NCBI GenBank assembly: GCA_017995735.1 | Contig: JAGOIG010000003.1 | Coordinates: 1 to 33,851 of the forward strand | Reading direction: 5' to 3' | DNA: 33,851 bases | DNA from: Candidatus Kapaibacterium sp. | GTDB lineage: Bacteria; Bacteroidota; Ignavibacteria; Kapaibacteriales; UBA2268 | Part shown: piece by piece, positions 24,752 to 33,838 of the stretch | How the letters are laid out: each line of letters opens with the position of its first letter | Numbering within the stretch: position 1 is the stretch's first letter | Translations under genes and position numbers: made by a program | The notes under the pieces: model-generated | What the model was told of the DNA's origin: nothing | The model's database searches: none | Seen by the model: only the letters and a program-made list of their open reading frames with translations

Positions 24752-26041
24752 TCAAAATTCAAAATGAAATCCATATATTAATGAAATTGTAGAACTAATT
24801 TTACTTTTCGCTTCGGGATTAAAGCTTTGTCCTAATAAAAGTTTTGATTCGCTTCCCACTGTAAAGTCTATAGAGTTAGAAATTTTATAATTAGCCAACA
24901 CTTTCAAGTTCCCTATCATTCCACTACCACTAAATCCCGCACCTATCCTTGATGATAAAGTAAAATCATAAAAATCCAATAAGTTTTTTTCATAAAACAG
25001 GCCCGCCCAAATTATTTTTTGTTCATAATTCACTTTACCTGGTGTTCGTATTAAAAATTCAGTTCCTCCACTATTTACTAAAGAGCCAAACACATCTCGG
25101 GAACCTGATTTAATATCAAGAAAGTTCGCCCTATCCACTCCAATTTGAAAATATCCCGTTTCAATACCGATTTTTGAATCTGGATTTAAATTGTATGCAA
25201 CACTTTGAGTGAATGATGAAATTGTAGAATGCGATTTATTTACACCAAATATGGCAATATCAGTGCCTAAAAATGAATTAAGTTCTACTTGTTCCGATTT
25301 TGCAATAGTAGAGATTGCATTTAAAAGTTCTCCGTTAAAATTCTTTATTTGCTGCTTATTGAAAATTAAGATTTCATTTTGGGTTATCATATTTTTTACG
25401 AAAAATGAATTATCCATTTTCAAGTTATTTCTCTGAATATTTTGTGCAAATTGGGCTTCGGTCATATAAGGATTTGACGATAAGGACATTTTATTTGATT
25501 TGTCAGGAGTGGGCTCGGGATTTTCACTGAGCTTTGCAATTCCATCTACTTTTGAATATATTGTTATTTGTTTATTTCTTTGATTCTTTTTAATTATCGA
25601 CTTCTTTTTAATTTTAGAATTATTATCAGAAAGCAAATTCGATATTGTGACTTTTTCATTATTTATTGATTCTGTCAATTTCTCATCATTGTGTTCTTTT
25701 ATGAGATAATGAATGGGATTATCAATATTTGAAAAGACAAGAAATAGCATAATAGCGAGCACTGATGCAAATTTAAATTGGTTCGATTTTTTCTTTCGCG
25801 CAATTTTTTTATTATTATCTGCAATAATTTTATTTTTGATTTCCTCTTTGACATTATCAAAGAATTCCTCTGGAAAATCGACTTCATTTGCATCTTTTTT
25901 AATTTCAAAATCAAAATTGAGCAAAGCATTATATTCTTGCTTTAATGATGGATCTTCCTCAATCATTTTCAGCAATATGGCATTTTCTTCTCGAGTTATT
26001 GTGCCATCAATATATTTAAATATTAATTCAGTTAGATTCAT
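24752..26041 (-). CDS. Membrane anti-sigma factor-like protein with C-terminal beta-barrel-like domain
   Basis: 429 residues. The N-terminus (1-50) has the anti-sigma pattern Y-I-D-G-T-I-T-R-E-E-N...E-E-D-P-S-L without zinc-ligand Cys/His. One membrane helix (about 89-105) follows a Lys/Arg-rich stretch, which predicts a cytoplasmic N-terminus. A polar, Lys- and Asn-rich linker (106-250) leads to about eight alternating strands (255-429) with aromatic ends and a terminal F-x-F, typical of small outer-membrane barrels. The second copy at 30966-32174 shares A-Y-N-x-N-P/I-E-x-G and other motifs. The gene overlaps the sigma gene by 14 nt. The inference is that it restrains the sigma factor and responds through its outer-membrane end. 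Alternatively the C-terminal beta domain may be periplasmic. Confidence 0.72.
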   Translation of the reverse strand: MNLTELIFKYIDGTITREENAILLKMIEEDPSLKQEYNALLNFDFEIKKDANEVDFPEEFFDNVKEEIKNKIIADNNKKIARKKKSNQFKFASVLAIMLFLVFSNIDNPIHYLIKEHNDEKLTESINNEKVTISNLLSDNNSKIKKKSIIKKNQRNKQITIYSKVDGIAKLSENPEPTPDKSNKMSLSSNPYMTEAQFAQNIQRNNLKMDNSFFVKNMITQNEILIFNKQQIKNFNGELLNAISTIAKSEQVELNSFLGTDIAIFGVNKSHSTISSFTQSVAYNLNPDSKIGIETGYFQIGVDRANFLDIKSGSRDVFGSLVNSGGTEFLIRTPGKVNYEQKIIWAGLFYEKNLLDFYDFTLSSRIGAGFSGSGMIGNLKVLANYKISNSIDFTVGSESKLLLGQSFNPEAKSKISSTISLIYGFHFEF

Positions 26042-26591
26042 TTAATTCTTTCACAAGTGGTGCCAATAATTCTTTTAATTTAAGTCGAGCGCGATGAACT
26101 CTGACGAGGGCAGTATTTTTATCAATTTTCAAAATTTCTGCAATACTCTCATAAGTCAAATCTTCATAATCTCTAAGAATTAAGGCTTCTCTGAGCAAGA
26201 TTGGTAATAATTGGATTTTTTCGTTTATAGCTTCTTTCATTCCAATGTTCAAATAACTTCGTGGTTTAAATCCATAATCATCGTTACCAATTTTAACTTG
26301 TCTTTTCTGCTTGCGGAGATAATTAATGCAAGTATTATGCGCAATCGTATATAGCCAATTATGAAAAGTCTCGGGCTTAATATCCATTCTGTGTTCATAA
26401 GCTTTCAAAAATGTCTCATGAAAGCAATCCTTGGCTAGTTCTTCATCTCCAAGCAATTTAAAGCATAATCTGTAGATCATATTTTTAAATCGATTATATA
26501 AAAATTCAAAAGCTTCGGCATCTCCTTCCTTAAACCTTTTGGTTGCTTCTATGATTTTCTCTTGCTCGCTATTTTCATCGCCTTTTTTCAT
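26028..26591 (-). CDS. ECF RNA polymerase sigma factor (copy A)
   Basis: Alternative sigma factor of the extracytoplasmic-function group, 187 residues. Region 2 is clear around 30-90 (Y-N-R-F-K-N-M-I-Y-R, then D-C-F-H-E-T-F-L-K-A-Y). Region 4 is at about 125-175, with R-E-A-L-I-L-R-D-Y-E-D-L-T-Y and the helix-turn-helix I-A-E-I-L-K-I-D-K-N-T. It overlaps the downstream anti-sigma gene by 14 nt, the usual arrangement for a regulated pair. No ribosome binding site is visible. A possible -7 element, TAAATTTG (complement of 26642-26649), lies about 50 nt upstream. Its likely targets include its own operon and perhaps the surface cassette that follows on the same strand. Confidence 0.93.
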   Translation of the reverse strand: MKKGDENSEQEKIIEATKRFKEGDAEAFEFLYNRFKNMIYRLCFKLLGDEELAKDCFHETFLKAYEHRMDIKPETFHNWLYTIAHNTCINYLRKQKRQVKIGNDDYGFKPRSYLNIGMKEAINEKIQLLPILLREALILRDYEDLTYESIAEILKIDKNTALVRVHRARLKLKELLAPLVKELNESN

Positions 26592-30965: not shown

Positions 30966-32174
30966 TTATCTAAAACTAATAGATAATCCTCCGGTAAATC
31001 CATAGTTCAGCGAATTAAAAATTTGGCTTTGGAATTTATATAATAACAATGATGTTTCAAATCCTCCTCGTATCGCCATCTTTTCATTCAGACTATAATT
31101 CAAACCTGCCTCAACTTTCCCAAGCCCTCCAACTTGAGTTGCTCCTGCAAATATTTTTGTATAGGGATTAGCTTTGTAAATAGATGGGATATGTGCAAAA
31201 TAATGATAGTAACCAATTCCTGCATATTGAGCAGTATAGACCTGAATTATCTTAGCATCATTTCCATCAATTTTTCCTGAAAACTTTTGTGTGAAATTCT
31301 CTTGTCCATATTCAATTGATAAAGAGTTCATCGGATTAATATTATAAGCAATATTTAACGAGAAATTATTCAGCATCGGATTACTTAATGGGTCAAGATT
31401 TGATTTTATATTAGGACTTATAAAATTCTTATTAAACGAAATACTTATATTTTCCAAAAAATTATAGAAATTATACGGGTTCTTTCTATTCCCTATAAAA
31501 TCAGGATTATTATTAAGTAATATATTGGATTTGTTAAAATCGCCTTGAGAGCTATATATTGCCCTAGGTAATGGAACAAATTCATCAGGTGTAGTATCTT
31601 CATTAAAAAGATAATCACTCCTATCATCATCTCCACCAATATCAAAAGGTTCTCCCAAGCGATTTTTTGATTGTACTTTGTTCAATAATGCAATTGACTT
31701 ATGCGTAGAAATTGTATTTGTATTTTCGCTTGCAATTGAACTTACTATTGGTGCTGTTGAGTTCTGTATTATTTGTGTCTGATTTGCAATTTTACTGATT
31801 TGGTTATTTTCTCGCTCTGGATTAATAAAATAGCCAATTAAAAACATCAATCCACCAAATACTATTCCCCCCGCAATTGGATTCATCAAATATCTCCGCA
31901 AAAATGCAAGAATTGCAAAAGAAATTGTACCCAAAAAAGCAGTCTTCTTCAAATTGAATTTTACTATCAACTTATCTTTTAAATATGCCGGTGGGGCAAT
32001 CATATCCTGTTTTAACATATTTTGCAAAACTAATGATTGTGTGAATTCTTCTTGCAATGCGGGGTCGTCGGCAATTGCATAAAAGAGCTCTGTCGTTTCA
32101 TCCGGGGGGAGCTCCCCATCCACAAATTGATTAATTTTACTTATATAATCATTATCTCGATTTAATCTATCCAT
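30966..32174 (-). CDS. Membrane anti-sigma factor-like protein with C-terminal beta-barrel-like domain (copy B)
   Basis: 402 residues, same plan as the copy at 24752-26041. The N-terminus has F-V-D-G-E-L-P-P-D-E and A-D-D-P-A-L-Q-E-E-F (16-44), without zinc ligands. Hydrophobic segments lie at about 79-91 and 98-116, separated by R-R. An Asn/Ser/Thr-rich linker follows to about 235, then about eight alternating strands ending in S-I-S-F-R. Shared motifs with copy A are A-Y-N-I-N-P...S-I-E-Y-G (276-290) and E-T-S-L-L-L (373-378). Two hydrophobic segments pose a topology problem, because only an odd number would place the C-terminus outside. The first is short and may be peripheral. It overlaps the sigma gene by 8 nt. 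Confidence 0.7.
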   Translation of the reverse strand: MDRLNRDNDYISKINQFVDGELPPDETTELFYAIADDPALQEEFTQSLVLQNMLKQDMIAPPAYLKDKLIVKFNLKKTAFLGTISFAILAFLRRYLMNPIAGGIVFGGLMFLIGYFINPERENNQISKIANQTQIIQNSTAPIVSSIASENTNTISTHKSIALLNKVQSKNRLGEPFDIGGDDDRSDYLFNEDTTPDEFVPLPRAIYSSQGDFNKSNILLNNNPDFIGNRKNPYNFYNFLENISISFNKNFISPNIKSNLDPLSNPMLNNFSLNIAYNINPMNSLSIEYGQENFTQKFSGKIDGNDAKIIQVYTAQYAGIGYYHYFAHIPSIYKANPYTKIFAGATQVGGLGKVEAGLNYSLNEKMAIRGGFETSLLLYKFQSQIFNSLNYGFTGGLSISFR

Positions 32175-32754
32175 TCTTTCTCTCCTTTTCTTTTTTTATA
32201 TATTCTTTAAAATAAGGTGCAAGCATTTCCCTTAATTTTTCTTTTGCTCTATATATATTCGAAGCTACCATTGTTCGTGATATTCCCATTATTTCAGCAA
32301 TTTCATCATACGAATAGTTAAGTGATTCTTTTAACATTAATGTCTCTTTTAAATTAAACGGCAATTTATCTATTGCTGAATCAATAATATCTTTTTCTTC
32401 TTTTTGTTCATATCTTAGCTGATAGTATCTTCCTACCGACTTGTCCAACGGACCAGGCGCTTTCTTAATCTCATTTACTCTATCAATGCAAACATTATGA
32501 GCAATTTTCATTAAATATGCCTTAATATTGTCAAATTTATCTTTTTTTGAAACGACATTTAAAAATTTTACGAAAGTATCTTGAAAAGCATCCTTAGCAT
32601 TTTCCTCATCGCGCAAGATTTTTACACAATAAGTATAAATGAGCTTTGAATAACGATTATAAATCTCCTCGAATGCTTGCCGCGATATCGATTTATTATC
32701 GGAATTCAGCATAGCACTCAATTCAGAATCGTTATATTTTTCAATATCGTTCAT
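32167..32754 (-). CDS. ECF RNA polymerase sigma factor (copy B)
   Basis: 195-residue extracytoplasmic-function sigma factor. Region 2 spans about 25-95 (I-Y-N-R-Y-S-K-L-I-Y, then D-A-F-Q-D-T-F-V-K-F-L). Region 4 lies at about 135-185, with L-M-L-K-E-S-L-N-Y-S-Y-D-E-I-A-E-I-M-G-I-S-R and the following Y-R-A-K-E-K-L. It ends in a Lys/Glu-rich tail. It overlaps the anti-sigma B gene by 8 nt. It differs clearly from copy A in region 4 recognition residues, so the two probably read different promoters. There is no visible ribosome binding site. The 121-nt gap to the receiver-CheD gene contains paired hairpins. Confidence 0.93.
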   Translation of the reverse strand: MNDIEKYNDSELSAMLNSDNKSISRQAFEEIYNRYSKLIYTYCVKILRDEENAKDAFQDTFVKFLNVVSKKDKFDNIKAYLMKIAHNVCIDRVNEIKKAPGPLDKSVGRYYQLRYEQKEEKDIIDSAIDKLPFNLKETLMLKESLNYSYDEIAEIMGISRTMVASNIYRAKEKLREMLAPYFKEYIKKEKERKNG

Positions 32755-32875: not shown

Positions 32876-33838
32876 TTAAATTTTCCAAGTTCCTTGCATT
32901 GGATGGTGGATATATAGATTCGTCTCGTTTGATTTGATAAATACTGTTCTTGAAATATCTCCTCCAACGTCTTGCGCAACTAAATCTATGTTATTTTTTA
33001 ACAGGTTTGCTTTTAAGGCAATAATATTTTTCTGCCCAATATTGAAAAAATTACCAATCTCAGCTCTTGTTTTTGCCCCTCCTGCTATCTTTGCAAATAT
33101 TTCATTTCGATTGCATCCCATCTTCATCATCTGCTTTAGCATCTCTGCTGGCGCTGTATCGCAGAAATATCCCGGCAATTCCTCTGATTTCTCCAAATTT
33201 GTTCCTGAATATGGTAATGCTATATGCGATAAGCCATAAATATTTTTTGATGGACAAAACATTGCAAGACTAACACACGACCCAAGTGCATATATCTTTA
33301 ATATCTTTTGTGAATCGCTCGCAAATTCCATTGCCCCCATTCCCAAAATCACTGTATCTGTCTTTGTCTGACGATCTATTACAGTTTGAGGTAATTCATA
33401 GTGTTGTTCCTCTGTCTTCAAATAATGCACATCATCATTAACTGCTATTTTTATTTTTATCCACAACTGAGATATTACATCAAGCAATCCTTGCGAACCC
33501 CCCGAGGGTTTTTTAATGAAATCCACAGCACCCGCTTCGAACGCATCTCGTGTTAATTTTGAGTCTTTATCTGTAAGTGCGCTCAATACTATCGTAGGAA
33601 TTGGATTTATTGAATTCAATTTCAATAAAAAATCAATACCGTTCATCTTTGGCATTTCCAAATCAAGCACTATCACATCAGGTTTATTGCGTTTTACTAA
33701 ATTCAATCCAATTTGTCCATCTGTTGCTGTTCCTATTACTTCAATCATTGGATCCCTTACAAGTCCCTTTGATAATATATCAAGCACAAGCGGTTGGTCA
33801 TCGATTATAAGAACTTTAATTTTTTGATTTGCTTCCAA
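32876..33838 (-). CDS. CheB-type receiver domain fused to CheD deamidase domain
   Basis: 320 residues. The receiver domain (about 7-125) has the acidic pair D13-D14, phosphoacceptor D59 in V-L-D-L-E-M-P, S86 and K110. Its C-terminal G-A-V-D-F-I-K-K-P-S-G-G is the form seen in CheB. After a linker, instead of the CheB methylesterase, there is a CheD domain (about 160-318): A-L-G-S-C-V-S-L with C188, S-H-I-A-L-P with H205 17 residues later, and D-V-G-G-D-I-S-R. CheD deamidates glutamines of chemoreceptors, so phosphorylation may control deamidation. The Thr normally just before G-S-C in CheD is replaced (I182/Y183). The start is TTG 33838, but the frame stays open to the window edge, so the 5' end may lie outside. 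Confidence 0.85.
   Translation of the reverse strand: MEANQKIKVLIIDDQPLVLDILSKGLVRDPMIEVIGTATDGQIGLNLVKRNKPDVIVLDLEMPKMNGIDFLLKLNSINPIPTIVLSALTDKDSKLTRDAFEAGAVDFIKKPSGGSQGLLDVISQLWIKIKIAVNDDVHYLKTEEQHYELPQTVIDRQTKTDTVILGMGAMEFASDSQKILKIYALGSCVSLAMFCPSKNIYGLSHIALPYSGTNLEKSEELPGYFCDTAPAEMLKQMMKMGCNRNEIFAKIAGGAKTRAEIGNFFNIGQKNIIALKANLLKNNIDLVAQDVGGDISRTVFIKSNETNLYIHHPMQGTWKI

Follow-up and report, generated by a model that had tools for sequence, protein, structure and literature searches.

A CheB-type receiver joined to CheD in Kapaibacteriales, a candidate for phosphorelay control of CheD in cis

An open reading frame at one end of the window (the whole stretch of DNA analysed here, 33,851 nucleotides from a Candidatus Kapaibacterium sp.) encodes a receiver of the CheB type that is fused to a complete CheD. 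Profile matches, structure comparison and conserved residues all bear out the receiver–CheD fusion proposed in the initial annotation, whose coordinates, 32876-33838, are correct (Table 1). Judging from sequence comparison, we consider it rather probable that the CheB-derived receiver lets the CheA phosphorelay control CheD in cis, beside CheB, and that this control replaces the one exerted in trans by CheC and CheY-P.

Alignment makes TTG at 33838 the probable start codon of the fusion; the assignment is probable rather than certain because the frame runs on without a stop as far as the contig end, 13 bases from the gene start. Residue numbers (D13, D59, C188 and so on) follow the 320-residue protein, and Pfam spans refer to the 324-residue open frame.

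Table 1. Positions of the fusion gene, its parts and its downstream neighbour in the window.
Feature	Coordinates	Strand	Remarks
REC–CheD fusion gene	32876..33838	(-)	320 aa from TTG 33838 (probable start); frame open to contig end, 33850
CheB-type receiver domain, with alpha-5 helix and start of CheB-like linker	33431..33826	(-)	
Phosphoacceptor Asp59 codon	33664-33662	(-)	within receiver domain
Interdomain linker	33353..33430	(-)	residues 144-157 disordered in model
CheD domain	32897..33352	(-)	Cys188 codon 33277-33275; His205 codon 33226-33224
ECF-type sigma factor gene directly downstream of fusion	32167..32754	(-)	context, no chemotaxis part

Both halves are recognised by Pfam far above cut-off: Response_reg (PF00072) at residues 13-117 (E 1e-22) and CheD (PF03975) at residues 212-315 (E 2.5e-22), the latter scoring 79.5-82.4 bits against a curated cut-off of 25, which places it within the family. 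The CheB methylesterase domain (PF01339) is absent from the fusion protein in the same analysis. Among NCBIfam models, CheB fits the front half best (residues 9-156); those for CheD span about 163-318. Structure comparisons of the AlphaFold model (Foldseek, VIA) paired the C-terminal half with Thermotoga maritima CheD (2F9Z; Z 25.7, rmsd 1.6, 154 residues aligned). For the N-terminal half, the best solved-structure matches are CheB receivers, among them that of T. maritima (3T8Y; Z 23.4, rmsd 1.5, 137 residues aligned). An identity of the C-terminal half other than CheD, which would have told against the initial annotation, is thus ruled out by profile and fold. Across 20 aligned fusions, the receiver-site residues D13, D14, D59, S86 and K110 occupy invariant columns, as do the catalytic residues of the CheD half that had been named earlier, C188 (in the motif G-S-C) and H205.

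The fusion recurs within one order. CheD was found in 25 of 123 Kapaibacteriales genomes, and 23 of the 123, from two families, carry receiver and CheD on one intact open reading frame, several of them sharing neighbouring genes; an assembly chimera or a chance reading frame is thereby ruled out. A 24th copy (G062) is truncated by its contig end, though the linker is still present. One genome (G085) has a lone CheD only, and another (G050) has one besides the fusion; a locus of the latter (L177, G050:C377) holds an additional, divergent che cluster, which comprises a CheB of its own and a lone CheD. The other CheDs in 395 sampled genomes of the phylum are stand-alone proteins; their open frames, of 159-229 aa, leave no room for a fusion. 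A contig scan with in-house profiles gave only two receiver-then-CheD fusions among the matches listed, both from Kapabacteria/Ignavibacteria records; two named relatives are MAGs, one of Candidatus Kapabacteria and one of an uncultured Ignavibacteria. Plasmid matches listed are annotated as CheD, as hypothetical protein or are unnamed, and are known by annotation alone. An uncultured Steroidobacter encodes the opposite order, CheD followed by a receiver, in a 670-aa open frame (L125:5716-7725). We found no description of a receiver–CheD fusion in the openly accessible literature. A widespread and already characterised fusion, the other finding that would have told against the initial annotation, was not encountered in these papers.

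Trees agree with the profiles and structure matches on the CheB-like character of the receiver, another point made initially. The receiver of the fusion clusters with those of CheB and stands apart from most others, including CheY-like outgroups. In a receiver tree that contains the window's own sequence, all CheB receivers lie to the same side of one branch, which gives no support to the idea that the fusion receivers were recently and separately copied from the CheB of each genome. The fusion receivers form no single clade in the tree, and a single clade is not rejected (AU p 0.14). In a quick CheD-domain tree, one clade (SH-aLRT 99) unites the CheDs of 21 fusions with that of the truncated copy; its neighbours are lone CheDs from Desulfuromonadales-type and Spirochaete records. 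De-duplication removed the window's sequence from this tree and from the first receiver tree, and the trees do not each hold every fusion copy.

The initial annotation took the deamidase to stand in for the methylesterase of CheB. This holds for the architecture of the protein only; for the circuit it fails. The window's genome encodes a complete CheB (G000:C10), and CheA and CheB domains, the CheB methylesterase domain included, occur in all 24 fusion-bearing genomes, so replacement of CheB is ruled out. The cheA, cheR and receptor genes that the annotation suggested seeking next to the window, together with a true cheB, were all found in the same genome on other contigs: cheA, cheW and cheR on one (C180; cheA is G000:C180) and a single MCP on C75, plus FliP. 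In the same genome, a CZB zinc-binding domain interrupts a CheW (L172:2920-3729, G000:C1), and two-part CheW matches on open reading frames of 264-299 aa occur in five relatives too.

CheC shows a different pattern. No match was obtained in 21 of the 24 carriers, the window's genome among them, with a short Pfam model of 38 positions (this genome being ~95% complete), and three carriers gave weak CheC-like matches. In Bacillus subtilis, the affinity of CheC for CheD rises by a factor of more than seven with CheY-P, and conservation of the CheD residues M101 and F102 (B. subtilis numbering) goes with the presence of CheC (PMC3513319). T. maritima CheD has Met-Phe at this CheC-contact pair; none of the aligned fusions keeps the pair, the first residue being Thr, or Ile in G093, while the second varies. 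With CheC unmatched in most carriers, the contact residues lost and the receiver site invariant, CheD is here without its customary regulator in trans and has a phosphorylatable domain of its own. That the phosphorelay controls deamidation is plausible and consistent with the loss of both CheC and its contact residues.

On the reading we prefer, control in cis, the dedicated CheA of the cluster would phosphorylate Asp59, as it does for CheB. Phosphorylation would alter the access of the CheD domain to the receptor helices, and this in turn would change receptor deamidation, the stimulation of CheA by CheD, or both. The fusion would thus impose on CheD in cis what CheC and CheY-P do in trans in B. 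subtilis, and would work beside CheB rather than as its substitute. What we infer is that CheA phosphorylates the fusion, in which direction and to what effect this acts, and that the receptor is the substrate. The receptor of the window's genome accords with this reading: it has Glu-Gln pairs at candidate modification sites, and its C-terminal DFGRY follows the published xZxxZ pentapeptide rule. Several observations count against control in cis: the indefinite arrangement of the two domains, the position of the gene outside the che cluster in the window's family, Ile182 at the triad position, Thr at the position of M101, the weak CheC-like matches in three carriers, and a genome (G046) that has the che cluster and no CheD match.

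Alternatively, the receiver could serve mainly as an address label, docking, like CheB, on CheA or on the receptor tail and so bringing a constitutively active CheD to the array, with a minor part for phosphorylation. The AlphaFold model is compatible with such a tether: it comprises two confident domains (mean pLDDT 89.5) joined by a disordered linker (pLDDT <50), their relative position is not fixed (pTM 0.54), and no confident interdomain interface is predicted, which also leaves a CheB-like occlusion of CheD by the receiver unsupported. Linker length differs widely as well, being short in the window's family and long and variable in the second family. Receptors in three genomes have pentapeptide-like xFGRY ends, DFGRY in the window's genome and EFGRY in two receptors of the second family (L043:1-2295, L047:10921-13083, L048:5366-7534), which fit the published xZxxZ rule for CheR/CheB-binding pentapeptides (PMC7390727). 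A pure tether, however, would need neither the phosphorylation residues, invariant over the 20 fusions, nor a receiver that is more conserved than the CheD half within the window's family. We regard this alternative as unlikely, though it deserves some weight.

In the CheD half, the triad Thr (T. maritima Thr21) corresponds here to Ile182, and the neighbouring position has no Ser or Thr either. The fusion also has Thr at the position of B. subtilis M101, where the mutant CheD-M101A has little deamidase activity (PMC3513319). A CheD half that binds receptor or kinase with little catalysis, its binding switched by the receiver, would accommodate the change of Thr to Ile, and in B. subtilis CheD binding does outweigh catalysis (PMC3513319). 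Against this, Cys and His are invariant and the fusions of the second family keep the triad Thr; moreover, the third triad position varies widely among CheDs, many stand-alone proteins having no Thr there, and CNF1 uses a backbone carbonyl as third element (PMC7022378). Because the Thr is kept in the second family and the position is variable, catalysis by the CheD half is likely rather than certain. A mainly binding role appears improbable.

Gene order suggests how the fusion arose. In three genomes of the second family (f7; G093, G096 and G100) it directly follows cheR–cheB in a che operon, with cheA and an MCP gene upstream in two of them within the contig stretch covered. Marispirochaeta has the order cheA-cheR-cheB-cheD followed by a receiver gene; its cheD is stand-alone, and cheB and cheD overlap by 4 nt. 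As cheR–cheB precede the fusion in the one and a lone cheD in the other, the fusion occupies the cheD slot, and we infer that a piece of a cheB copy became fused to the cheD behind it.

In the family to which the window's genome belongs, the gene has been relocated and lies outside the che cluster. The initial statement that the window holds no other chemotaxis gene agrees with our results for the part from about 24.7 kb on, and no homologue of the genome's own CheA, CheW, CheR or MCP was recognised beside the fusion in ten neighbourhoods of the family. The neighbour is a large receiver-bearing open reading frame (1439 aa) in two of the ten and a permease gene in several; a homologue of the sigma factor also follows the fusion in two close relatives, G052 and G053 (Pfam run on the G052 homologue). 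The window contains two sigma-factor-like genes of one BLAST family (26028-26591 and 32167-32754); after each comes a larger gene that has the strand in common with it. That this orphan gene, beside a transporter permease or sigma factor, has left chemotaxis for another pathway is very improbable, given that CheA and CheB domains accompany every copy, that a long CheA type tracks the fusion (22 of 24 carriers versus 2 of 99 other genomes, by hand tally with genome kinship uncorrected) and that a genome of the same genus lacking CheA also lacks the fusion. One of the two exceptions, G101, has a more distant CheA and no CheB orthologue beside it.

Together with the CheB of each carrier, control in cis would give a two-arm circuit, in which one CheA feeds two receivers on two receptor editors, CheB and REC–CheD, the second arm replacing the CheC/CheY-P branch. 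We give this wider scheme an even chance; we found no description of such an adaptation circuit in the open literature. If true, a sensing kinase could control a receptor-editing enzyme directly, without a separate partner protein. The fusion would be a simple and testable answer, in one lineage, to the control of CheD in bacteria without CheC, and its single polypeptide isolates the question of whether phosphorylation acts on CheD.

The protein shares with the CheDs of T. maritima (2F9Z) and B. subtilis the fold, the Cys and His residues and the whole domain length; unlike them, it has a receiver, lacks the CheC-contact Met-Phe and, in the window's family, has Ile for the triad Thr. With CheB it shares the receiver and the start of the linker, but it has no methylesterase domain and coexists with a separate CheB. 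It would resemble the CheC/CheD/CheY-P system of B. subtilis in tying CheD to the phosphorelay, and would differ from it in that control is in cis, in carriers that mostly gave no CheC match. CheV, a receiver with a CheW adaptor (PMC3513319), offers a precedent for a chemotaxis module with a receiver of its own, although the module differs.
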